Of a stretch of DNA of 64,000 bases, positions 6,319 to 19,791 are shown piece after piece. The stretch is from Halapricum desulfuricans (GTDB lineage: Archaea > Halobacteriota > Halobacteria > Halobacteriales > Haloarculaceae). Every line of letters starts with the position of its first letter. The stretch's first letter is position 1. The notes beneath the pieces are model-generated. The model did no database searches and was not told the DNA's origin. It worked only from the letters and a program-made list of their open reading frames with translations. The position numbers and the translations under genes were made by a program. The stretch is taken from assembly GCF_017094525.1 (NCBI RefSeq), contig NZ_CP064788.1:124001-188000 (forward strand), written 5' to 3'.

Positions 6319-7111
6319 ACTACCACAGTTTGTGACCATTACCCAATAATTCAACGTAACCGGAATAGAAGTGAACTACATCGGATTTTTCGTTTGGTAA
6401 GACTCTTAGGTGACTACTGTCATCTACTGATTACGAACCTATGGCGCGTCCCTTCCGCCTTTTCAGTATCTACGATTTCTTTAGCGTATTTCTCCCGGGA
6501 CTTGCTACGGTACTCGGCTCTGCACGTTTAAGTAAGGCCGCGATATAGATGGCGTTGACAGCTGATGCTGCCGATCACAGACTTCCTCTCGTGTACTGAC
6601 CCGTTGGATGAGTTCGACTCGCTATCGTATCATCAGACTCAGCATGCCAAAACGTACGTGACAGGTCTTGCTGCGGCCAGCAGCAAGACCGTCACCGGGA
6701 TTGCACGAGAAGTCCTTCCGGCCGGAAGCGACCGGGCACTCAACAAGTTCATCACCGAGTACAACTGGGACGAAGACAAACTTAATCACGAACGGTTAGA
6801 GGAACTGCAAAATCACGGTGAGACGCGGTGGTCGAAGGACGGCTACATTGTCATCGACGATTCAGTGCTCCAGCGAACCGGGAAGGAACTTCCCGGTGCT
6901 GGATCGTTCTATGATCACAGCGAAGGCAAGCCTGTCTGGGGACAAAATCTCGTCTATGCGTTCTATACTGACCACAAAACGTCCTATCCACTAGCATTTC
7001 GCCAGTACGAGAAAGCTGATGACGACGAGGAGGACGTAGAAGCGACAAAGTACGAGCTTGCACAGGAGATAATCACAGAACTCGAAGAAGAGATAGGTGT
7101 GCCTGGAGTGG

Positions 7112-7642
7112 TCAGCGTAACTTCTGGACATCTGGGAGGAACGTCTCGATCCAATCACTAGCGAAGCTGACCTGCTGACTCAACCGGTGGAATGTCTCGG
7201 TGAGGAACTCTCGAAAGTTGTCTTTGTCATCGAAGATTTCAGGAGAGATGTCTCGTTTGAGGTCTTTCCAGAGCGGTTCGATTGCGTTCAATGTCGGTGA
7301 ATACGGCGGAATGAAGACGAACTCGATGCCGAGTTCGTCGGCCCGTTGCTGTGTGAGTTTCGCATGGTGAGAGCCGTAGTTATCGGCCACGAGCAGAATC
7401 CGGCCCCGCGGATTCTGCTCGCGGATCTCCTCTAACGCCTCAACGATCGTCTCTTTGACTAACCGCTTTTTGAACGTAATCACACTTTGACCAGTCAGCG
7501 CGTAGAAACCGATCGACCGCCATGGAAACGTCACTAGCGGTTTTGCGATCGTGACCGTCCGATCAAACGACCAGAGTCGCTGTGAATTCTCGAACGGTTG
7601 AGGCCACGCTTCATCGAAAAAACCCCAACACGACGGGATCAT
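7112..7642 (-). CDS. IS630 transposase, catalytic (DDE) part, orfB
   Basis: A 176-residue frame holding the catalytic half: GFFDEAW (first Asp), VADNYGSHHA (second Asp) and LNAIEPLWKDLKRD (Glu). That is the D-D-E triad of the Tc1/mariner-IS630 superfamily. It overlaps the end of orfA in a +1-shifted frame. The overlap contains a run of six T (A6 at 7617-7622 on the given strand), where slippage would join the two frames at ...GFF/DEAW. The annotated ATG is probably not the natural start; the product is expected to be an orfA-orfB fusion. Confidence 0.8.
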   Translation of the reverse strand: MIPSCWGFFDEAWPQPFENSQRLWSFDRTVTIAKPLVTFPWRSIGFYALTGQSVITFKKRLVKETIVEALEEIREQNPRGRILLVADNYGSHHAKLTQQRADELGIEFVFIPPYSPTLNAIEPLWKDLKRDISPEIFDDKDNFREFLTETFHRLSQQVSFASDWIETFLPDVQKLR

Positions 7643-8171
7643 CCTCCTCGGTATCGTGGTCGTCCTCGCCGAGCGCCTCAGTCAGGCGCTCGGCGAGAAT
7701 CTCATCTGCGTCAGCCGGACTACGCGGATCCATCGGCCGCGGCTTGGCGTAGTTCATGCCCGCGGCACGAAGTTTCCGGCTGAGATGCGCCGGGTGGTAG
7801 GTGACATCGTAGCGGTCTTCGATTAGGGCGTGAATGGCTTGCGGTGTCCAGGGTTGATCCTCTTCGAGGATACCACAGAGTTCATCGAACTGCGTGGGAG
7901 TGAGCTTCGGCGGCCGGCCGCCGCCGAAGCGCGGGCGGAGTCCCTCTACACCGTCATCATTCCACGCGCGAGCCCATCGACGCGTCGTAGATCGGGAGAT
8001 TCCGACGCGTCGGCCCGCCTGCTTGCGGGTATCGCCCTGATAGAGATTCTTGATGAAACACAGCCGCCGGACGAGACGGGTCTCGTCCGCCGACTGTGCA
8101 TCTTCGATAGCCTGCTCGAGCTCTTCTTCCGACAAATGCCGCACTAACTCTCCGCGTTGGCTTGTGTTCAT
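7611..8171 (-). CDS. IS630 transposase, DNA-binding part, orfA
   Basis: A 186-residue protein with a helix-turn-helix, RKQAGRRVGISRSTTRRWARAWN, followed by the GLRPRFGGGRPPKL hinge and a second winged-helix-like segment (WTPQAIHALIEDRYDVTYHPAHLSRKLRAAG). This is the paired DNA-binding region typical of IS630 transposases. The frame ends at ...VVLGFFR just after a T6 run, from which a +1 shift enters the catalytic orfB frame. Confidence 0.8.
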   Translation of the reverse strand: MNTSQRGELVRHLSEEELEQAIEDAQSADETRLVRRLCFIKNLYQGDTRKQAGRRVGISRSTTRRWARAWNDDGVEGLRPRFGGGRPPKLTPTQFDELCGILEEDQPWTPQAIHALIEDRYDVTYHPAHLSRKLRAAGMNYAKPRPMDPRSPADADEILAERLTEALGEDDHDTEEDDPVVLGFFR

Positions 8172-8920
8172 CGAGAGCTATACGCTTCCAGAAGAGTCAA
8201 CTCTTTCGCAGACCACTCGCGGCCACCTATCTCTTCGATTCGTGGTTCGCTCACGGTTCTGAGCTGATCAAGCATGTCGAGTCCCACCGAAAGGACTGGA
8301 TTGGACCTCTCCGGAGCAATCGACAGGTCACATTTGATGGCGAAGAGAAGCGGGTCGATGCGCTCGCAGAGAGCATCGACACTGAAGAACGGGAGATTGA
8401 CGATGAGGTCTACAACATCTGGACGAAAACGCTGCCTGTATCAAAATTGGGTGAGGTACGGCTAGTAATCACCGAGAAAGAAGTTGACGAGGACGAAGAG
8501 AATCCGGTCAAGTATCTTGCGACGAACAAGATTGACGCTCCATCAGCCCATATCATTCGAAGCTACTCCAAGCGGTGGCGAATTGAGACATTCTTCGAGG
8601 ACTCGAAAGAGGATCTTGGCCTTGGAGGCTGCGAGGTGCGTGATTCTGATGGTGCCAGTCGTCACTGGCACCTTCAGATGCTCACCTACAGTCTGCTTCG
8701 GCTTGGTTCTCCGTCGAGCGTCTCGGAGCGACTCGTCTCGAAAGCCTCGTCGCTCCGAGCCCAGCTTGAACACGGTCTCAAAGAGGCAATCTACAACATG
8801 TTTTCGTGGGTGCGCGAGCAGCCAGAGCGGGATCTCGATGGGTTGATGGAAGAAATCGACCATCTCTTCCTCCATTCAGGGGGCTCTGAGGGTTGTATAT
8901 AAACGTGCAGAGCCGAGTAC

Positions 8921-9753: not shown

Positions 9754-11205
9754 TCAGTCGCCGTCATCCATTGGTTGGTCGGCATCGTCGCCACTGAGTT
9801 GCCGGTAGCCCGCGTAGCTGCTGGCCGTTCCGAGGGCCGCCAGCGCGCTCCCGACGCCGAATCCAGGCCCCGACCGGCCGTCTGTCAGTCCAGACTCCTC
9901 ATTGTCATCGTTCTGTCCGTCGGAGCCGCCGGCCGTAGAGGGTCGTTCCGTCGAGGATGTCTCGTCAGAGGGTGAGGTGTCACCTTTCGGATCTGCCGTT
10001 CCCCCCATCGAAATAGACTGGTCAGCGTAAGACCAGCCACCGTGATGACCTAACGTGCCCAACATTACTCGTGAGTCCTCACTCGACCCCTCGACACCTG
10101 CATCCACCGCGTACAGTTCGCCATTGTTGTCCCCGACGTAGAAAGCGGACCCGACGTAGACGGTGCCATCGACCACCGTTGGCGAACTTGAGACTGAACC
10201 ACTTGTCTTGAACGCCCACTGCTTTTCGCCCGTCGCCGCATCCACCGCATACAGGTTTCCACCATCACTGGACCCGGACCCGACGTAGACGGTGCCATCG
10301 ACCACCGTCGGCGAACTGGTGCCTAAATCCCGCGTCTGGAAGGTCCACTGCTTTTCGCCCGTCGCCGCATCCACCGCGTACAGGTTATCATCGTAGGACC
10401 CGACGTAGACGGTGCCGTCTATCACTGTCGGCGAACTTTCGACGCTATCACCCGTCTGGAAGGCCCACTGCTTTTCGCCTGTCCCGGCATCCACCGCGTA
10501 TAGATTGGTATCGTTGGACCCGACGTAGACGGTGCCGTCTATCACCGTCGGCGAACTCCTGACGCCATCACCCGTCTGGAAGGCCCACTGCTTTTCGCCT
10601 GTCCCGGCATCCACCGCGTATAGATTGGTATCGTTGGACCCGACGTAGACAGTCCCATCAACCACCGTCGGCGAACTCCTGACGCCATCACCCGTCTGGA
10701 AGGCCCACTGCTTTTCGCCTGTCCCGGCATCCACCGCGTACAGGTTACCATTATCATCTTTCTCCCCAGACCCGACGTAGACGGTGCCGTCGACCACCGT
10801 CGGTGAACTGTAGACATCATTATTCGTCTGGAAGGCCCACTGCTTTTCGCCTGTCTCCGCATCCACCGCGTACAGGTTATCATCTAGGGATCCGATGTAG
10901 ACGGTGCCGTCGACCACCGTCGGTGAACTGTAGACCCTCCCGCCCATGTCGAGGGCCCATTGCTTTTCGCCGATCTCCGCATCCAACGCGTATAGGTTGG
11001 AATCGTAGGACCCGACGTAGACGGTGCCATCAACCACCGTCGGCGAACCGTAGATATAACCACTCGCCTCCAAGCTCCACAGGTACTCACCGGCAGTCGT
11101 CGTCTGCGCACTGGCTGGGGCCCCAACACCGGTGGTGGCGATAGCGCCAGCGCCGAGTCCCAACAGGTATCGCCGGCGAGTCACGGAGAGGCGATCGTCA
11201 GTCAT
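9754..11205 (-). CDS. Secreted PQQ-type beta-propeller repeat protein
   Basis: The start MTDDRLSV is followed by the Tat signal RRRYLLGLGAGAIATTGVGAPASA, so the protein is exported folded. The body consists of about eight ~40-residue repeats with the core SSPTVVDGTVYVGS-x-D-x-NLYAVDA-x-TGEKQWAF, the PQQ/YWTD-like blade motif. Three adjacent repeats (about 10441-10760) are almost identical in DNA. The C-terminus has an acidic linker, then GPGFGVGSALAALG, resembling the PGF-CTERM archaeosortase signal, so it is probably attached at the cell surface. PQQ binding is not certain; many such haloarchaeal propellers are structural or binding proteins. Confidence 0.8.
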   Translation of the reverse strand: MTDDRLSVTRRRYLLGLGAGAIATTGVGAPASAQTTTAGEYLWSLEASGYIYGSPTVVDGTVYVGSYDSNLYALDAEIGEKQWALDMGGRVYSSPTVVDGTVYIGSLDDNLYAVDAETGEKQWAFQTNNDVYSSPTVVDGTVYVGSGEKDDNGNLYAVDAGTGEKQWAFQTGDGVRSSPTVVDGTVYVGSNDTNLYAVDAGTGEKQWAFQTGDGVRSSPTVIDGTVYVGSNDTNLYAVDAGTGEKQWAFQTGDSVESSPTVIDGTVYVGSYDDNLYAVDAATGEKQWTFQTRDLGTSSPTVVDGTVYVGSGSSDGGNLYAVDAATGEKQWAFKTSGSVSSSPTVVDGTVYVGSAFYVGDNNGELYAVDAGVEGSSEDSRVMLGTLGHHGGWSYADQSISMGGTADPKGDTSPSDETSSTERPSTAGGSDGQNDDNEESGLTDGRSGPGFGVGSALAALGTASSYAGYRQLSGDDADQPMDDGD

Positions 11206-11554
11206 CGCTATCCCTCCGCATTGCCTCCTCACCCAGCAGTACCTCGACATACCGCTGGTATTCGTTTACAGATTTCTTCGTCCTCTCGAACCGTGCTCGG
11301 GGACGGTTCAAGCGACACAGCCGGTTGGTGACATTCATACGTGCCGATGTGTCTGTCGAAATAATAACTTTTGCGGGTTCGACACGACTCGACAACGATT
11401 CCGTCACTGCCTCGCGACCAACCTCGACGATGCATCCCCTTCGCCACTCCCGAGAAACGGCGGTTCTGTCGAGATATCGGCAAGTTCGCTAGAGACAGGG
11501 ACGGGGGGACACACGCGGGTATCCCGTGCGATCGGTCTATTCGTCGCGTTCGTG
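11206..11554. other. Gap upstream of the propeller gene
   Basis: This holds the divergent space between the propeller gene and a membrane-protein frame. The plus-strand frame that ends at 11935 is open through here but shows no membrane-protein character before about 11520. I see no recognisable gene, and only an AATAATAACTTTTG patch near 11361 that could be a promoter. Confidence 0.3.
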
Positions 11555-11935
11555 ATGTGGGTGGCCCAGTGGTCGTCGCGACGGGTCGCCGTGTTCGTTG
11601 GCGAGGGGGTGGCCGTGGTGTTGGTGTGGGTGGTATCACTATCGTACAGTGGCCTCGATGTGTTTGTGCTCAGGATGGCTGGAGCGGGCGTCGGGCTGAG
11701 TGGGTGGGCTCTCTGGCAGACAGAGGCGGCGGTGGCCTGGAAGCGTAGTGACCTCGGTGTCGGAGTCGGGATTGTGGCAGTCCTTGTGAGCTTTATGTTG
11801 ACGCTATTTCCGTCGGGGTTCGTCGAGCAGCAGGTGAATATCTTCGCTCACGGTGCCGGGCTGGTGTGGGGCGCGATCATCGCCACCGCGATGTGGATTG
11901 GATCCAGCTATTCCGCACAGAGTTTCAAGAGCTAA
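11555..11935 (+). CDS. Polytopic membrane protein, possible rhomboid-like fragment
   Basis: A 126-residue frame starting MWVAQWSSRRVAVFVGEG with four to five hydrophobic segments, ending in VEQQVNIFAHGAGLVWGAIIATAMWIGS. The AHGAGLVWG segment resembles the last rhomboid-type helix (His followed by a Gly-rich stretch). The catalytic Ser motif is not visible, so this is either a pseudo-rhomboid or the C-terminal part of a broken gene. The start is uncertain: GTG at 11552 or an upstream codon is possible. Confidence 0.4.
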   Translation: MWVAQWSSRRVAVFVGEGVAVVLVWVVSLSYSGLDVFVLRMAGAGVGLSGWALWQTEAAVAWKRSDLGVGVGIVAVLVSFMLTLFPSGFVEQQVNIFAHGAGLVWGAIIATAMWIGSSYSAQSFKS

Positions 11936-12088
11936 CTGGTCAAATTCCGATCAGCAGCACTCGGATAAATAGCCCAGAAACCCGGACCGATATCCATGCG
12001 ACATCGGCTCAAGATCCATCAGCACGAAAACTAGAAATCCGCGGGATAGGGTGTGATAATACGTCTGCACCACCGCCTAAGAATACCC

Positions 12089-13480
12089 TTACAGCCGATC
12101 GTGCACTGACTGGAGGGCTATGATCGCGTTCTGAAGCTCAGATTGGAGATGTTCTGTGGCTATCTCGCTATCCTGGGACAGCTGCTCTGGTTGATCGGTG
12201 TCGGCGTGGACTATCTGCGTTTCCGCCCCACTCCGGGATGCGATTTCCGTGGCTACGTCTTGGTCCGTCAGCGTGTCAAGTCGCTGTTGGTCCTCATCTT
12301 CCACAGTCGATTGGCTGCCGTCGTCTTTCTGTGACGGCGAGTCTGCACGTTGTTGAGTCGGTGAGGTCCGCCCTCCTCGACCATCAAAAGCCTCCAGTGG
12401 AAAGGCATACGCAGCAGCCCGTTTTTCCTTGTAAAACGTGGTGCGTTTCGAGATATCGAACACGTTAGCGACGACATCACGATCATACCCACGCTCAAGG
12501 GCTTGTCGAACACGCTCGTCAGCGGCCCGCTGGAGCAGGATTTGTGGATCGTCGGGGATGTGTCCCCGGGCTGACTTGGTGATCTGTCCGGTTAATCCCC
12601 ACTCGCCGGTCGTGACATCCTGATCAACGATCTGCCGGTCTCGCTCATCCACAATGGTATCCAACCCCATCAGCACCCACAGTCGCTCGCGGACGGTCAT
12701 CGCGGAGAACTCGCCTGTGAGTTCGGCCACAATATCACCCGTCGTCGCCGGCCCCTGCTCGGCCAGGATCCGGAGGATCTCGATATCCTGCCCGAGCAAT
12801 TCCCGCTGGTCGGCGTCCGTGAGATCGACGGGGAGTTGCCTGTCGGTCGGTTGCTGGTGGTGCCAGTGGTGACACCGCCGACAGAGGACCGTCAGATTCG
12901 CCGGGTCGTGCACGTCCCCGTCGTCGGGATCGCGCGTCTGGTGATGGACGTGCAGCGTCGCGAGCCCGCCGGCGGCCCGACCCATCCGCCCACACACTTG
13001 ACAGCGGTGGTCGTGGGCCTCAAGGACACGCCGGCGGGTAGCCTGATCGACCGTCTCGTGACACGTCCCGGCGTCGGGCATCGCTCCCGACTCGGGTGTG
13101 TCAGTTTCGGGCTCGGTTTCGGCCTTCGTCTCAGGCCCGGTTTCGGCTTTTGTCTCGGGCTCGGCCTCTGTCTGGTCGTTGACCGGCGCTTCGTTGGCTG
13201 GTTCTGTGGCCGTGTCTGTCCCTGTTTCTGTGGCAGTGCCTGTATCTGTGTCTGTGTCTGTGTCTGTGCTTGTCCCTGTGTCTGGGTTGTCTGTTGCAGT
13301 TGGATTCATGGTGTCTCGCGAGTCGTCGTGTGATTGGCGCGCGCTGCTGGTCGCCGGGTGGGTGTGGAACGTCTGGATGTGGTGTATCGCTTCAATCGGT
13401 CCACCATCGGGGGCAATGCCGGCCCGGTGCCAGCGGGTCCGACCGTCGGGTCGGGATGGGTCTGGATCAGTCTCCGGCAT
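12089..13480 (-). CDS. HNH nuclease with C-terminal winged-helix/HTH region
   Basis: A 463-residue protein. Residues ~60-140 are a Thr/Asp/Glu/Pro-rich repetitive linker. The HNH domain lies at ~148-208: C160-x2-C163, HVHH at 177-180, then NLTVLCRRCHHWHH with the second zinc pair C200/C203 and an Asn before it. All expected HNH residues are present. After it come a winged-helix-like segment (ILAEQGPATTGDIVAELTGEFSAMTVRERLWVL) and a second HTH-like part (VVANVFDISKRTTFYKEKRAA). The start overlaps the exonuclease gene by 14 bp; an alternative start is MNPTATDN at residue 58. It probably supplies DNA cleavage to the Cas5/Cas7-like complex encoded upstream. Confidence 0.75.
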   Translation of the reverse strand: MPETDPDPSRPDGRTRWHRAGIAPDGGPIEAIHHIQTFHTHPATSSARQSHDDSRDTMNPTATDNPDTGTSTDTDTDTDTGTATETGTDTATEPANEAPVNDQTEAEPETKAETGPETKAETEPETDTPESGAMPDAGTCHETVDQATRRRVLEAHDHRCQVCGRMGRAAGGLATLHVHHQTRDPDDGDVHDPANLTVLCRRCHHWHHQQPTDRQLPVDLTDADQRELLGQDIEILRILAEQGPATTGDIVAELTGEFSAMTVRERLWVLMGLDTIVDERDRQIVDQDVTTGEWGLTGQITKSARGHIPDDPQILLQRAADERVRQALERGYDRDVVANVFDISKRTTFYKEKRAAAYAFPLEAFDGRGGRTSPTQQRADSPSQKDDGSQSTVEDEDQQRLDTLTDQDVATEIASRSGAETQIVHADTDQPEQLSQDSEIATEHLQSELQNAIIALQSVHDRL

Positions 13481-14357
13481 GGATCGTCGGCGTCAGTGAC
13501 TTGAGCGAGAAATCCGATTTCGAACAGTAGCGTTCGGCCAGGCGGCCGAGGTGTCTGGTCCGGAGTACGTCCGCAACGTTGTGTACGACCAGGTCGGCAA
13601 ATCGTCCCGCTTCGAAAGCGGTCACTGCCTCGCTGCTGTCCGTGAACGGATCCAGCTCATCGTAGGTGCCATCTCCGAGCGTCGCGTAGACGCCGGCGAG
13701 GTCCCGTCGCGTACCCACTCGCTCATCGGCATCACTCTCGGCAGCAGCCGTTTTGATATCCTCTTCATCATTTTCGATATCCTTTTCACCAATTTCATTA
13801 TCTATTTCATTAATTTTGATATCGGCATCATTATTTTCGATATCACCAACCCGATCACCACCATCACCACCACCATCACAATCACCACCAGCAGCACGAT
13901 CACTGGCAGCCCCATCATCACTACTCGCCGACCCATCGACAGTGGTGTTGAAGCGGTTGGTGATGATCGGCATGAGATCCGCATACGGCGAGTTCTGGAA
14001 CGGCCAGGCCACGTCGGTCGTCGCCAGCCGCGTCCGCAGGAAGGGCAGGTCAAAGCCCGCTCGCCAGCGCTCGCCGTTGTACGCGACCAGTAACACATCA
14101 TCATCAGCCAGGCGTGCAGCAGCAAACTCGCCGACGGCCGCCAGGAGCGCCCGCTCGGAGGGGTGTGTCGAGACCCGGACGGTGTCGGGCACCCGCTGTT
14201 GGACGGTCTGTTCCAGCTCGGGGGCCGGTCGGCGATCCGTGCGACAGAACACGCGGACGCCCATCGGCAGGGCAAACCCGATGACGGTCACCTCGTCGTC
14301 GACGGTGAAGCCCGTCGTCTCGATATCGAAGGCGACGAGATCCAGGCGGTCGCTCAT
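13467..14357 (-). CDS. DEDD-family 3'-5' exonuclease-like protein
   Basis: A 296-residue protein of the DnaQ/RNase H-fold exonuclease superfamily. Motif I is AFDIETTGF (D11, E13), motif II is AYNGERWRAGFDLPFL, and motif III is VVHNVADVLRT (H-x3-D), giving the D-E-D-D set. The arrangement resembles the exonuclease domain of family B polymerases. A low-complexity insert rich in Asp/Glu/Asn/Ile (IENDEEDIK-like repeats, encoded at roughly 13750-13920) separates motifs II and III. The ATG overlaps the stop of the Cas5-like gene (ATGA), so it belongs to the same operon. Expected role: single-strand trimming of nucleic acid, target unknown. Confidence 0.75.
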   Translation of the reverse strand: MSDRLDLVAFDIETTGFTVDDEVTVIGFALPMGVRVFCRTDRRPAPELEQTVQQRVPDTVRVSTHPSERALLAAVGEFAAARLADDDVLLVAYNGERWRAGFDLPFLRTRLATTDVAWPFQNSPYADLMPIITNRFNTTVDGSASSDDGAASDRAAGGDCDGGGDGGDRVGDIENNDADIKINEIDNEIGEKDIENDEEDIKTAAAESDADERVGTRRDLAGVYATLGDGTYDELDPFTDSSEAVTAFEAGRFADLVVHNVADVLRTRHLGRLAERYCSKSDFSLKSLTPTIHAGD

Positions 14358-15379
14358 CGTGGGCAGTCACCCCCGCTGTCAGCCGCGTGCTTGCTGTCCG
14401 GATCCTGGTGGCCTGCCTGTGCGCGTGACCACCGGGGACCTGCGCCATCGACGCCCACCCGCTCGGGCACACGATCAGCACTGGCCGGGCGCACCCGGAG
14501 TTCGCCGAAACCGTACTTGGCGTGGGTGCCGACGCGGCGGATGCCGTTCCGGGCGGTCGCGATGGGCTCGTCACCCCCGTAGCCGACGACCTGGCCGTGA
14601 TCGACCGTCTCGACGTGGTGGAGCTCGTCGCCGGTCACCAGCCGCGTGACTCGCCGGCGGAGCCTGTCCGTCCCTGTCCACCACCACGGAATCGACTGGT
14701 TGTCGGCGCCGGGATACCCGCTCGCGAGGACGTATGGCGTGATGAGGTCCAGTGTGTAGGCATCGGCCTCGCGGAGGCGGCTATAGTCCAGGTCATCGAG
14801 ATCGACTGTCTGGGTGTCCGCCAGCGCGAGTTCGCCAAAGCCGTAGTTGCGCGCAGCGCCGACACGCAGCCCATCGAGGGTATTGTCGGCCAGGGGCAGG
14901 CACGACGCGGGACTGTCACTGCCAGCCGCCCCGCTGTCGGCGTGCAGATACGCGTGGACGTACCACCGCATCGTCCGCCTGCTGGTCCGAGCATCGGCGG
15001 GACGACGCACTCGGACGGTCGGCGCGACGGCGTGGTGGCCGCTATACGAGCGCCAGTCCTGCGTGTTGTGGGCGTCGCGTGGCCGGCTGTCGAGCAGCCA
15101 GCGCTGGGCACCATCCCGGAACAGGAAGAGGTCGTCGTAGGCCTCGACCGGGCGCAGGCCCGTGCCCATGTAGGGGGCGGTGCCGGTCTGCGAGTGGGCC
15201 TCGGGATAGGAGCCGAACTCCCCAGGGACGAACACGCCGTGGCTGACCTGCAGCGCCCGTCGGGTCCGGGCGTCTACCCGGCGAGCGAGTGCGTTGAACA
15301 GGGCATGGCCCGTCACGTAGTAGGGGTGGCCCGCATAGGGCGCCGTCACCTCGAAGAGCACCTGCTGGATGGTCGTCAT
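14354..15379 (-). CDS. Diverged Cas5-like RAMP protein
   Basis: Start MTTIQQVLFEVTAPYAGHPYYVTGHALFNAL, preceded by a GGGGGCG ribosome-binding sequence. 341 residues. Residues 5-35 form a beta-strand plus helix like the first half of a RRM-fold RAMP domain. Two glycine-rich loops occur at ~168-184 (LRVGAARNYGFGELALAD) and ~279-294 (GIRRVGTHAKYGFGELRV), the signature loop of Cas5/Cas6/Cas7 RAMP proteins, here duplicated. The sequence is far from canonical Cas5, so the call depends on these loops and on the neighbours. Predicted to bind guide RNA as part of a Cascade-like complex. Cas6-like processing is an alternative, but no convincing catalytic His is apparent. Confidence 0.65.
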   Translation of the reverse strand: MTTIQQVLFEVTAPYAGHPYYVTGHALFNALARRVDARTRRALQVSHGVFVPGEFGSYPEAHSQTGTAPYMGTGLRPVEAYDDLFLFRDGAQRWLLDSRPRDAHNTQDWRSYSGHHAVAPTVRVRRPADARTSRRTMRWYVHAYLHADSGAAGSDSPASCLPLADNTLDGLRVGAARNYGFGELALADTQTVDLDDLDYSRLREADAYTLDLITPYVLASGYPGADNQSIPWWWTGTDRLRRRVTRLVTGDELHHVETVDHGQVVGYGGDEPIATARNGIRRVGTHAKYGFGELRVRPASADRVPERVGVDGAGPRWSRAQAGHQDPDSKHAADSGGDCPR

Positions 15380-15419
15380 CTGTCGCCCCCTTCGTTTCCC
15401 CTCCAGATTCTGAGGGGCG

Positions 15420-17267
15420 TCACGCACGATCACCACCAGCTGGGTCGTTCGGTTCATCGCCAGCGCCATCGTTCCCCGCACCAGCACCACCAGCACCACT
15501 GCCAGTACCACCCCGCTCATCGGCGCCACGAGTCCCATCTCGACCAGCACTCTCACCACTCGTGACGCCAAGCCGGCCAGTGGCCACGTCCGCGATGGTC
15601 GCAAGCGCCGCCGACCACGACCGGATGCGTCGCAACTGGGCATCCAGCCGGCGCCACCGGCGGTCGCTGTCCACGTCGAACGGGAGTGCGGGCAGGCGCG
15701 CCCACACGTCCGCGAACGACCGGGCGGGGGCCGGGCCGAGGGGTGCTGCCGGGCGGCCGTCCGGGTCAGCCATGATGTGGAGTGTCACCGGCCCCGCGTG
15801 CAGGATCGTCCGGTGGGGGAGCACGTCTGCCGCCGAGGGCGTCTGTGTCGCGGCTCGTCCGGCCCTGGGTGCCGTCGCCGCTCCTGTTGCTGTCCTGGAT
15901 TCTGTTGCTGTTGCTGTTTCGGGCCCGGTGGGTCGGTCTTCGGGGTGGGCGTTGGTCGGGGTCGGGGTCGGAGCCCGGATCGAATCCGAACCGGTGGTCG
16001 GCTGGTCGGCCGCCGTCTCGACGACCAGATGGAGGTCATCGAAGGTCGCGCCGGCGCGATAGTTCGACAGCAGGGCGGCCGTCAGCAGGACGTGATATTT
16101 GAGGGCCGTATAGGGATAGTGGATCGTCTCGTTGCGTGCCGCGGTGGTGTCCGACGCGAGCCAGGCGGCGTGGGCAGCTGCGGGGTCGTCGATCGTCGCC
16201 AGCTCGCGGGCGGCTGTCCGGAAGGGAGACAGGTCGCTGGTGGGTCGGACCGGCTGGCCAGTCAGCAGCGACAGGCGCACGGGTGAGGCGTGGGCGGGGA
16301 CGGTCTCCTCGGGCTCGCCCGGCGGGCGGCTCAGCCGGGCCGCGTCGGCGTCGGCGCCCCCGGGGACTGGCTCGTTGACGCGTGCGCCGGCGTATGTCTC
16401 GGCCGCCGTCTCGTGTGCGCGCCCCCGGAGTTTGTGAATATCGTGGCGGTACACCGCGAGCAACGGCGGGACCTCTGTGGGCGTTGCTGGTGGCGCCGGG
16501 TCGGCCGAGTCGGAGTTGGGGTTGGGGGCAGGGTCTGTGGTGGACGGTGGGTCAGCGGTGGTGTCCGTCGTGGCGTCCCCTGGAGGCGTGTCCGATCGCG
16601 CATCCCCTGGGGTGCCGGCCGCGGCGGCTGGGTCGGCGTCGGCAGCAGGTGTTGCATCAGCGGTTGCATCAGGCGTTTCATCAGCGGTTACAACAGGTTG
16701 TGAATTGGTGTTTACCCCAGATTGTGAATTGGTGTTTATCCCAGATTGTGTATCCGGGCTTACCCCAGATGGTGAATCGGAGTCTCCAACAGGTGGTGTA
16801 CTCGTGTCTGTGGGCCCAGTGGTGTCCGGCGTCGGGCTTGCGTCCACGTCCGTGTCCGGATCTGTGTTCGGGTTGGGGTTCGTGTCCGGCTCTGTGTCTG
16901 TGCCTGTCTCTGTGTCTGTGTCTGTGTCTGTCTCCGGGTCTGGGGTAGTGGTGGTGCTATTGGTGTTACTGGTGGTGCTATTGGTGTTCGTAGTGGTGTT
17001 GGTGATCTCGTCCGGATCGGTATCCTCCCGCGAATCCGCGTCGGTGTTCGCCCGCGAATCCGGCTCGCGTGCGCGTCCCGCGGGGCCGGTGGGGGTGTAG
17101 AAGTGGGTGTCGGTGTTATCAGGGTCGGCCTGTGCATCGGCGGCCGTGTCAGCATCACCATCGGTTCCATCCGCGGGTGCATCGGCGTCTGTGGCCGGTG
17201 GTGTTGCCGACGACGAAGACGACGAGGATGACGAGGACGAGGAAGGTGCCGACGGCTCGTCGCTCAC
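15420..17267 (-). CDS. Conserved HRAMP-associated protein with long disordered N-terminus
   Basis: A 615-residue protein starting at a GTG that overlaps the TGA of the cas7-like gene (GTGA). Residues 1-~275 are low complexity: a run of about 12 Ser, then Asp/Thr/Pro/Asn repeats, partly encoded by TGTGTC microsatellite-like DNA (around 16890-16935). The folded part starts near VPPLLAVYRHDIHKLRGRAHE and includes HYPYTALKYHVLLTAALLSNYRAG, another Pro/Thr linker, and a helical C-terminus (SFADVWARLPALPFDVDSDRRWRRL). It ends in a Gly-rich tail. It occupies the place of the uncharacterised conserved protein of HRAMP systems, perhaps the large-subunit equivalent. No catalytic motif is visible. Confidence 0.6.
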   Translation of the reverse strand: MSDEPSAPSSSSSSSSSSSSATPPATDADAPADGTDGDADTAADAQADPDNTDTHFYTPTGPAGRAREPDSRANTDADSREDTDPDEITNTTTNTNSTTSNTNSTTTTPDPETDTDTDTETGTDTEPDTNPNPNTDPDTDVDASPTPDTTGPTDTSTPPVGDSDSPSGVSPDTQSGINTNSQSGVNTNSQPVVTADETPDATADATPAADADPAAAAGTPGDARSDTPPGDATTDTTADPPSTTDPAPNPNSDSADPAPPATPTEVPPLLAVYRHDIHKLRGRAHETAAETYAGARVNEPVPGGADADAARLSRPPGEPEETVPAHASPVRLSLLTGQPVRPTSDLSPFRTAARELATIDDPAAAHAAWLASDTTAARNETIHYPYTALKYHVLLTAALLSNYRAGATFDDLHLVVETAADQPTTGSDSIRAPTPTPTNAHPEDRPTGPETATATESRTATGAATAPRAGRAATQTPSAADVLPHRTILHAGPVTLHIMADPDGRPAAPLGPAPARSFADVWARLPALPFDVDSDRRWRRLDAQLRRIRSWSAALATIADVATGRLGVTSGESAGRDGTRGADERGGTGSGAGGAGAGNDGAGDEPNDPAGGDRA

Positions 17268-18253
17268 GTCCCATCACCGTCCAGGCCGGGGTGTGGCAGG
17301 TCGCCGTCACGCATGGCGGTGCGTGCTTGTAATGCGCGCACGAATTCGTCGCGGTACTCCCTGCGCCACGTTTCGTCTTTGTCCTGCATCGCGGCGGTCG
17401 CGTCTTTCGAGCGATCGAACACGCGTTTGATTTCCTGATCGGTATACAGCGGGTTGATAACCTGGGCGTCGGCGATGCCCGCGCCGAAATTGCGGGCGCC
17501 GCCGATCTGGAACGCGAAGTCATCGCTGTGGGTATCGAGGAAGGCGACGGCTTCCAGCAGGAGGCCGACGAACTCCGGTTTCAGTTCACGCAGCGTGAGT
17601 TTCCACGTCCCTTCGAGGTTGCCGAGCACGTCCTGGTCGGTCTGGCGGAGGGGCTGGCCGCCGTCGGCGTCGTTCCGGGAGCGGACGTGGGTAGACACCT
17701 GGCGGTAGTGGGCCTCCGCCTCGCCGTCAAGGATATCGACGTGTCGGCGGATCGGCGAGAACGTGATCGGTCGGCGCAACAATTTGCCGGGGTCGGCGCC
17801 GAACCCGCCAAAGAGGTCGTAGATGACACAGCCGGTCAGGTTCTCATGGTCGTGGGCGTGGTCCGGGTCGTGGGCATCAATGCAGGTGCCTTTCTCGTGA
17901 TAGCCGTTTTCGAGGTCGCGTTCGTATGTCTCCGCGCGCATGTAGTCCGCGTTTGGCTCTCCCGGATGGCACGCGCTCGCTCCGGCGAGTTTGACGACCT
18001 CCTCACAGCCGTGGCGCAGCCAGCCCGAGAGCGTGAACGGCGAGATCTGTCCCTCGATCTGGTTCATCGGATCGTCCGCCTCGTACCTCTCGGCCGAGGC
18101 GTGGTGGCGGTCCGTGACGATCCCGTCTCCCGGCGCGAGCAGGTCGATTTCCAGCGCGACGTAGATATTTGGAAGGTGTATATCTTCAATCGGTGGTAAG
18201 TCTAGTCCGAAATCGAGGTGTGAATCTATGTATGTCTGCTCGGTTTCCTTCAT
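17264..18253 (-). CDS. Diverged Cas7-like RAMP protein
   Basis: A 329-residue protein. Features in order: strand IYVALEIDLLAPG (30-42); ISPFTLSGWLRHGCEEVVKL (70-89), the substrate-loop and helix after the first strand as in Csm3/Cmr/Csf2-type proteins; LTGCVIYDLFGGFG (139-152), the 'LFG' turn of RAMP Cas7 proteins; and the Gly-rich loop FQIGGARNFGAGIADAQVI (248-266). Cys and His residues at ~95-136 (CHPG, GTCIDAHDPDHAHDHE) could bind a metal. Cas7 proteins form the backbone that holds guide RNA. It is the first intact gene of the operon, with a GGGGTGA ribosome-binding sequence upstream. A truncated gene precedes it. Confidence 0.75.
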   Translation of the reverse strand: MKETEQTYIDSHLDFGLDLPPIEDIHLPNIYVALEIDLLAPGDGIVTDRHHASAERYEADDPMNQIEGQISPFTLSGWLRHGCEEVVKLAGASACHPGEPNADYMRAETYERDLENGYHEKGTCIDAHDPDHAHDHENLTGCVIYDLFGGFGADPGKLLRRPITFSPIRRHVDILDGEAEAHYRQVSTHVRSRNDADGGQPLRQTDQDVLGNLEGTWKLTLRELKPEFVGLLLEAVAFLDTHSDDFAFQIGGARNFGAGIADAQVINPLYTDQEIKRVFDRSKDATAAMQDKDETWRREYRDEFVRALQARTAMRDGDLPHPGLDGDGT

Positions 18254-18270
18254 TTCTTCTCTTCACCCCC

Positions 18271-18484
18271 TTACACGCCGCGTCCCACATCGCCTTTCGA
18301 GCGATCTTCTTGGTTCTGAGACTGGTCTAAGGTTACCTTCGCTGGCCCTGCCACAGTCGACATTCTATCCGCAACAGTCATCGCCGCCGCACTGACGACA
18401 TGGACTTCTGGCCCCAACAGCACCGGCCACGACGACTGCGTTGCCACATCCGAGCATCGACTGATCCGACCTTCAACTAATAGC
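18271..18484 (-). pseudogene. C-terminal remnant of a gene cut off by the right IS copy
   Basis: Reading from the IS boundary towards the cas7-like gene, one frame runs open for about 70 codons (VATQSSWPVLLGPEVHVV, SAAAMTVADRMSTVAGP, AKVTLDQSQNQEDRSK) and stops at 18271-18273, 17 bp before the cas7-like start. The composition is protein-like and there is no start codon context; the 5' part is missing beyond the IS. It was probably the preceding gene of the same operon. I cannot identify its family. Confidence 0.55.
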
Positions 18485-19773
18485 TCGGCTCTGCACGTTT
18501 AAGTAAGGCCGCGATATAGATGGCGTTGACAGCTGATGCTGCCGATCACAGACTTCCTCTCGTGTACTGACCCGTTGGATGAGTTCGACTCGCTATCGTA
18601 TCATCAGACTCAGCATGCCAAAACGTACGTGACAGGTCTTGCTGCGGCCAGCAGCAAGACCGTCACCGGGATTGCACGAGAAGTCCTTCCGGCCGGAAGC
18701 GACCGGGCACTCAACAAGTTCATCACCGAGTACAACTGGGACGAAGACAAACTTAATCACGAACGGTTAGAGGAACTGCAAAATCACGGTGAGACGCGGT
18801 GGTCGAAGGACGGCTACATTGTCATCGACGATTCAGTGCTCCAGCGAACCGGGAAGGAACTTCCCGGTGCTGGATCGTTCTATGATCACAGCGAAGGCAA
18901 GCCTGTCTGGGGACAAAATCTCGTCTATGCGTTCTATACTGACCACAAAACGTCCTATCCACTAGCATTTCGCCAGTACGAGAAAGCTGATGACGACGAG
19001 GAGGACGTAGAAGCGACAAAGTACGAGCTTGCACAGGAGATAATCACAGAACTCGAAGAAGAGATAGGTGTGCCTGCGGCCACCTATCTCTTCGATTCGT
19101 GGTTCGCTCACGGTTCTGAGCTGATCAAGCATGTCGAGTCCCACCGAAAGGACTGGATTGGACCTCTCCGGAGCAATCGACAGGTCACATTTGATGGCGA
19201 AGAGAAGCGGGTCGATGCGCTCGCAGAGAGCATCGACACTGAAGAACGGGAGATTGACGATGAGGTCTACAACATCTGGACGAAAACGCTGCCTGTATCA
19301 AAATTGGGTGAGGTACGGCTAGTAATCACCGAGAAAGAAGTTGACGAGGACGAAGAGAATCCGGTCAAGTATCTTGCGACGAACAAGATTGACGCTCCAT
19401 CAGCCCATATCATTCGAAGCTACTCCAAGCGGTGGCGAATTGAGACATTCTTCGAGGACTCGAAAGAGGATCTTGGCCTTGGAGGCTGCGAGGTGCGTGA
19501 TTCTGATGGTGCCAGTCGTCACTGGCACCTTCAGATGCTCACCTACAGTCTGCTTCGGCTTGGTTCTCCGTCGAGCGTCTCGGAGCGACTCGTCTCGAAA
19601 GCCTCGTCGCTCCGAGCCCAGCTTGAACACGGTCTCAAAGAGGCAATCTACAACATGTTTTCGTGGGTGCGCGAGCAGCCAGAGCGGGATCTCGATGGGT
19701 TGATGGAAGAAATCGACCATCTCTTCCTCCATTCAGGGGGCTCTGAGGGTTGTATATAAACGTGCAGAGCCGA
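18485..19773 (+). mobile_element. IS701/IS4-like element, right copy (complete, no target duplication)
   Basis: A 1289-bp element with ends TCGGCTCTGCACGTTTA and its reverse complement, encoding an intact transposase. The flanking 4-mers are TAGC (18481-18484) and GCTA (19774-19777), which are not a direct repeat, whereas the left copy has a perfect GTAC duplication. The flanks therefore come from two different original sites, as expected after recombination or deletion between IS copies. The right end lies 18 bp from the stop codon of the radical SAM gene. Confidence 0.9.
18536..19759 (+). CDS. DDE transposase of the IS701/IS4-like element
   Basis: A 407-residue transposase. Catalytic blocks: DGYIVIDDSVLQRTGKELPG with the first Asp (98-99), TYLFDSWFAHGSELI with the second Asp, and YSKRWRIETFFEDSKEDLGLGGCEVR with the catalytic Glu, in the YREK-like context of the IS4/IS701 superfamily. 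The C-terminus is encoded right up to the right inverted repeat. This is the only complete copy in the window and could mobilise the interrupted left copy or the whole segment between them. Confidence 0.9.
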   Translation: MLPITDFLSCTDPLDEFDSLSYHQTQHAKTYVTGLAAASSKTVTGIAREVLPAGSDRALNKFITEYNWDEDKLNHERLEELQNHGETRWSKDGYIVIDDSVLQRTGKELPGAGSFYDHSEGKPVWGQNLVYAFYTDHKTSYPLAFRQYEKADDDEEDVEATKYELAQEIITELEEEIGVPAATYLFDSWFAHGSELIKHVESHRKDWIGPLRSNRQVTFDGEEKRVDALAESIDTEEREIDDEVYNIWTKTLPVSKLGEVRLVITEKEVDEDEENPVKYLATNKIDAPSAHIIRSYSKRWRIETFFEDSKEDLGLGGCEVRDSDGASRHWHLQMLTYSLLRLGSPSSVSERLVSKASSLRAQLEHGLKEAIYNMFSWVREQPERDLDGLMEEIDHLFLHSGGSEGCI

Positions 19774-19791
19774 GCTAGGTCGAAAAGGGAC

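Follow-up and report, generated by a model that had tools for sequence, protein, structure and literature searches.

A haloarchaeal HRAMP operon in Halapricum desulfuricans with a predicted Cas10-like subunit and a conserved element resembling a crRNA handle

The original account of HRAMP, the system considered here, is reportedly that of Makarova et al. (2019) in FEMS Microbiol Lett, fnz079. For HRAMP no guide is known, and the mechanism is listed as unknown. The system is described as haloarchaeal, with diverged type III-like Cas5 and Cas7 proteins, an extra protein, HNH or PD-(D/E)xK nucleases and no CRISPR array (PMC8730458, PMC12669027). ARAMP of the Asgard archaea, likewise an array-less, type III-derived RAMP module, is described as distantly related to HRAMP and differs in that most ARAMP carry a form of Cas1, a likeness drawn here by description (PMC8730458). 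The operon under study lies within a 64,000-nt stretch of Halapricum desulfuricans (NZ_CP064788.1, 124,001–188,000), referred to as the window, and all coordinates are positions in this window. The locus is almost certainly an HRAMP operon: it is haloarchaeal and encodes diverged Cas5 and Cas7, an extra protein and an HNH nuclease (PD-(D/E)xK-like in relatives), with no array. The present findings exceed the two descriptions cited above, by which the comparison is made, as these are silent on a Cas10-like fold, a small gene named c5, a handle-like element and a transposon-borne branch. The best overall explanation, held at a probability of roughly 0.5, is that the operon encodes an HRAMP effector served by a fixed guide.

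All five minus-strand open reading frames (ORFs) listed by the first-pass annotation of the window are present, overlapping or almost abutting (Table 1), as are the glycine-rich loops it had pointed to, GGARNFGAG in the Cas7-like protein and two GFGEL loops in the Cas5-like protein. These loops are kept in alignments A1 (33 sequences) and A2 (29 sequences), respectively, and because of this conservation and of the same gene order in approximately 30 loci from many genera, they are not due to chance. The Cas7-like protein is found in 77 of 292 sampled Halobacteria genomes, with close relatives in Halorussus, Halosimplex, Natrinema, Salinarchaeum and others, and 48 loci, including a few duplicates, were compared. 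Group A loci, in which Cas7 is at least 61% identical, exhibit the order c5-cas7-unknown-cas5-DEDD-HNH with frequent 4-base overlaps, the unknown gene being termed cas10L below. Group B loci (Cas7 50–57% identical) are composed of cas7-unknown-cas5 without DEDD or HNH. The HRAMP identity that had been claimed for the locus fits the published descriptions (PMC8730458, PMC12669027), and the genes stay together across Halobacteria; close homologues are not always found outside this gene set, and those of the DEDD and HNH proteins also occur alone. No array-like repeats are present in the window between 8900 and 24000, as had been expected of an array-less system.

Searches of single proteins with Pfam, NCBIfam and PADLOC gave RAMP matches that were weak at best. 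The Cas7-like protein weakly matched TIGR03986 (E 0.02) and Csm3 (E 0.007), the frame at 14354–15643 matched Cmr3 (E 3.6e-4), and sequence searches of solved structures with A1, A2 and the alignment of the extra protein (A3) gave no match. Among relatives, Csm3 profiles match 16 of 33 Cas7-like proteins, and Cmr3 profiles match all 29 of the Cas5-like proteins with a best E of 2.8e-8. The structure model of the Cas7-like protein (pLDDT 73) has the Cas7 of SsoCsm as its best Foldseek match (E 9.5e-6), with further matches to type VII Cas7, Csf2 and Cas7-11, and a top VIA Z of 9.8. The Cas7 and Cas5 assignments of the first-pass annotation are therefore borne out, the former by a Cas7 fold in the structure prediction (SsoCsm Cas7, type VII Cas7 and Csf2) and the latter by the Cmr3 matches across the relatives. 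On its modelled fold the first protein is a diverged Cas7 homologue nearer to type III, and on its profile matches the second is a diverged, Cmr3-like Cas5 homologue.

The extra protein owes its length of 615 amino acids (aa) to an Asp/Thr-rich N-terminal expansion, the conserved part being approximately residues 262–577 (~15537–16484). Its relatives are mostly 250–310 aa, and the protein is present in every compared locus that has a Cas5-like gene. It was modelled from the relative in locus L043 (pLDDT 85, pTM 0.87), and nearly all matches of this model are to Csm1/Cas10, with a best Foldseek E of 0.035. Against Csm1 the VIA Z is 13.0 (root-mean-square deviation 4.2 over 237 of 262 residues); Z ranges from 9.4 to 13.0 for 47 Csm1-containing entries and is 6.7 for Cmr2, and the first unrelated row is at 2.4. 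Counting against this assignment, a profile-profile comparison by hhalign with eight archaeal Csm1 proteins was not significant (E 0.37), though its sole aligned stretch falls on the HD motif at the N-terminus (YRHDVHK vs LLHDIGK). The GGDD motif that is invariant in the Csm1 alignment (A8) is not found in A3. The extra protein is predicted to be a reduced Cas10 that carries an HD-like motif but lacks a cyclase centre; the modelled fold is well supported, and descent from Cas10 is less well supported than the fold. Such a fold would give HRAMP a full type III-like core beyond Cas5 and Cas7 alone. It had been proposed that the DEDD and HNH proteins replace Cas3/Cas10. Both nucleases are indeed present, but replacement of Cas10 is doubtful because the extra protein has itself the appearance of a reduced Cas10. 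Compared with types III-A and III-B (Csm and Cmr), the locus exhibits a Csm3-like Cas7, a Cmr3-like Cas5 and a predicted Csm1-like fold, and differs in that it has no array, its Cas10-like protein is ~260 aa without GGDD, and DEDD and HNH nucleases are added.

The DEDD and HNH assignments are each recovered by a Pfam match (Table 1). In the DEDD protein, residues D11, E13, D103, H259 and D263 are invariant (20 sequences), and the copy in this genome has a low-complexity insertion. The HNH protein has an invariant Cys/His/Asn set (18 sequences) and conserved helix-turn-helix (HTH)-like segments, judged by eye. Its listed ORF is too long at the 5′ end, as the conserved start is near the ATG at 13309, leaving 13310–13466 as a non-coding gap between DEDD and HNH that contains the conserved element described below. 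Five loci encode a probable PD-(D/E)xK protein, unrelated to HNH, at the same site; this assignment comes from a conserved PD...IE.V...K pattern alone, a family search having given no match. Outside HRAMP, DEDD occurs alone near PolB- or RecA/Orc-like genes (L156, L157 and L164), and the HRAMP nuclease may derive from such relatives. HNH-only homologues are also found (L160–L163), and L155, from a genome of the same genus, encodes a DEDD-HNH pair without cas genes, with the HNH protein 67% identical.

In 22 non-redundant group A loci, the sequence ATTGAAGCGATAC-N-CCA occupies part of the DEDD-HNH gap. In columns anchored on the motif (n=22), ATTGAAGCGAT is invariant save for one base in one locus, and is followed by A (21), C (18), a variable base, C (19), C (22) and A (22), the last two being C15 and A16. 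Column 13, at guide position 6 when the guide is counted from the base that follows the handle-like eight, is the least conserved of the nine bases that follow the first eight (A in 11, T in six and C in five loci). Guide position 6 is left unpaired in class 1 complexes, as in Cascade and Csm structures. The flanks of the element are near random except for a short upstream TGCGG, and in this window the element lies inside the apparent N-terminus of HNH. Its first eight bases are exactly the 5′ handle of haloarchaeal type I-B CRISPR RNA (crRNA), and ATTGAAGC equals the end of the haloarchaeal repeats ...GTGGG[A/G]TTGAAGC, as counted in arrays in this analysis. In haloarchaea the last eight bases of the repeat become the crRNA 5′ handle, which is bound by Cas5 (PMC9458426). 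A search of the 292 Halobacteria genomes with the pattern ATTGAAGCGATANNNCA gave 27 matches, 22 of them in HRAMP loci (Fisher p 4e-10), and a reversed control gave none; the five stray matches (G182, G228, G206, G086 and G185) are away from HRAMP genes and fit chance. Variants at the first base occur in L006, L007 and L044 and on a plasmid of Haloarcula halobia whose DEDD is truncated. The region 11900–18700 has no Rfam match. A conserved leader peptide (RIEAI..) was rejected as the cause of conservation, since synonymous sites are frozen with the rare codons ATT and ATA fixed; it is further ruled out by an in-frame stop just upstream of the element in L005, from Natrinema hispanicum DSM 18328, whose motif-bearing operon is intact.

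In the proposed mechanism, HRAMP would be a type III-derived, array-less effector composed of the Csm3-like Cas7, the reduced Cas10-like subunit, the Cmr3-like Cas5 and a small zinc-ribbon protein; its output would come from two dedicated nucleases, the DEDD exonuclease and the HNH endonuclease. The element would be transcribed into a single fixed crRNA-like RNA with the 5′ end AUUGAAGCGAUA; Cas5 would hold its 5′ handle AUUGAAGC, and the seed GAUACNCCA, with position 6 free, would pair with a fixed target. Trimming of this RNA or of its target may fall to DEDD, and DNA cleavage to HNH. The RNA would serve as an unchanging guide, used either in regulation or to sense a single conserved sequence of an intruder, and not as adaptive memory; a constant target or regulatory role is suggested because the drift that follows the seed speaks against turnover of spacers. 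That the element gives rise to such a guide is held tentatively, at slightly worse than even odds, from its sequence. With its exact I-B handle and its freest site at position 6, the 17-nt element is a concrete and testable guide candidate.

Several points weigh against this reading. The element is absent from the PD-(D/E)xK-like loci and from group B and therefore could not serve every HRAMP as its guide, and three HNH loci (L040, L061 and L064) also lack it. Past the seed the sequence drifts, the resemblance to the I-B handle was spotted post hoc, and the crRNA-like RNA is itself a prediction from the sequence of the element. Within 10 kb, the seed is matched no more often than in the control (0.60 vs 0.71 per locus), no convincing seed target occurs in this genome, and guide-like sequences compared with phages gave one chance match only, to a Corynebacterium phage. 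The 84 matches of the pattern TTGAAGCGATACNCCA in viral contigs are, by our own estimate, roughly what chance would give for a collection of that size and were set aside.

The same element could instead be a DNA operator or a 5′-leader control site of the HNH gene in an HRAMP effector whose guides, if any, are elsewhere; it may, for example, be bound by the C-terminal HTH-like region of the HNH protein itself. This is unlikely, yet it is the alternative given the most weight, as the element precedes the HNH start by 65–87 nt in almost every locus, is gone where the PD-(D/E)xK-like protein takes the place of HNH, and is accompanied by the HTH-like segments noted above. The element is not palindromic, however, and L044 keeps it although another gene replaces HNH there. 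It is also missing in front of HNH in L040 and L155, which retain DEDD-HNH and have neither cas5 nor cas10L, and in the HNH-only loci L160–L163, and under an operator the exact 8-mer match to the handle and the free position 6 would both be coincidence.

That HRAMP lacks its own guide, and either borrows crRNAs in trans from canonical arrays or acts as a guide-free complex while the element has an unrelated role, is improbable. This genome does have arrays with Cas6 elsewhere, and mechanisms distinct from CRISPR are expected for these systems (PMC8730458), but the glycine-rich loops of Cas5 and Cas7 are conserved and HRAMP is not associated with I-B Cas7 (30/77 vs 63/215, p 0.15, with I-B alone counted), which argues against dependence on I-B. 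Less probable again, and the least favoured of the alternatives, is a CreA-like crRNA mimic, with which the type I-B Cascade of the host would be loaded to repress HNH or another HRAMP gene. The element shares with the CreTA systems of haloarchaea, which use such degenerate repeats, a solitary handle resembling a repeat, followed outside any array by a short fixed seed (PMC9458426). The handle is the same as in haloarchaeal I-B repeats, and I-B Cas7 is slightly enriched in the motif genomes (12/22, p 0.03). Unlike CreTA, the element is kept where I-B Cascade is lacking, since I-B Cas7 (PF05107) is absent from 10 of the 22 motif genomes including this one, and no toxin RNA was found. Seed matches in cis are not above control, and no TTC-flanked partial target in a nearby promoter was found. 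The one system of this genome is probably type I-D (L118-L119, G000:C1:1.896-1.912 Mb), with arrays on both sides and the repeat GTCGCAGCAGGGAGAAAACCCAGACCGGGATTGAAAC, ending ATTGAAAC.

The group B modules (L065-L078 and L251) lie inside elements with 30-bp inverted repeats CAGTTGTTGCAAATACGATTTCTTTATTCA, which often carry a DDE transposase (PF01609) and exhibit matching 4-bp target duplications in five of the six end pairs examined. The transposon-borne branch occurs in Halobacterium salinarum, a laboratory species that can be cultured, where pHSAL2 of strain 91-R6 has the same layout of transposase, HRAMP genes annotated as hypothetical, and right inverted repeat. Conserved k-mers near the group B cas5 were rejected as a guide because they are the transposon end. 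A wider and more tentative proposal, on which the odds are somewhat against, is that HRAMP lost its memory and kept one guide: the DEDD/HNH branch would encode a fixed crRNA-like RNA for a Cas5-Cas7-Cas10 core with exchanged nucleases, and the sister branch without DEDD and HNH would be cargo of DDE transposons in an independent CAST-like arrangement.

The copy of the operon in this window is interrupted at its 5′ end. Upstream of cas7 is a remnant of c5 (tblastn 49% over 78 aa, E 2.7e-12), a gene that overlaps the cas7 start where intact in relatives, and an insertion sequence (IS) cuts off c5 and the 5′ end of the operon. The N-terminal half of c5 is missing on the far side of the IS, so that a rearrangement must have taken place as well. 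The operon promoter was probably lost to the IS, and three operon genes contain low-complexity expansions. Because the 5′ gene and probably the promoter are lost, this copy may be damaged or silent, and its expression is doubtful. Identical IS copies (6513-8917 and 18482-19776) flank the operon region, the first being split by an insertion with an ORF at 7611-8171. Besides this operon, the genome has another HRAMP-like locus, which is degraded (L040, G000:C1, ~2.05 Mb) and encodes c5, a Cas7 without the glycine-rich loop, DEDD and HNH, with no cas5 and no cas10-like gene.

Table 1. Features of the HRAMP operon and its upstream border in the window
Feature	Position	Strand	Basis
HNH endonuclease, C-terminal HTH-like region	12089..13309	-	PF01844 E 1.3e-5; listed ORF reaches 13480
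Conserved non-coding element ATTGAAGCGATACACCA: crRNA-handle-like 8-mer and 9-nt seed-like stretch	13380..13396	-	DEDD-HNH gap
DEDD 3′-5′ exonuclease, motif residues conserved	13467..14357	-	PF13482 E 1.1e-5
Cas5-like (Cmr3-like) protein, two GFGEL loops	14354..15379	-	Cmr3 profiles, alignment A2
Predicted reduced Cas10/Csm1-like protein, 615 aa, HD-like motif YRHDIHK, no GGDD	15420..17267	-	Model of relative L043, alignment A3
Cas7-like protein, 329 aa, GGARNFGAG loop, invariant Cys/His set	17264..18253	-	Structure model, Csm3 profiles, alignment A1
Remnant of zinc-ribbon gene c5 (C-terminal part), sixth operon gene	18301..18481	-	tblastn
IS element, 20-bp inverted repeats AGCTCGGCTCTGCACGTTTA	18482..19776	+	Identical to split copy 6513-7105 / 8219-8917

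Group A operons often adjoin BREX-type genes, with PglX/Eco57I-like genes at 16 loci, a DrmD/BrxH-like helicase at 15, PglZ at six and BrxL at six (loci including L041, L043, L049, L054, L057, L064, L002, L004 and L005), a proximity that suggests either a defence island or a coupled system. Elsewhere in this window, a PQQ-type beta-propeller gene (9754-11250) contains a 115–120-nt repeat in seven tandem copies at 10148-11003.

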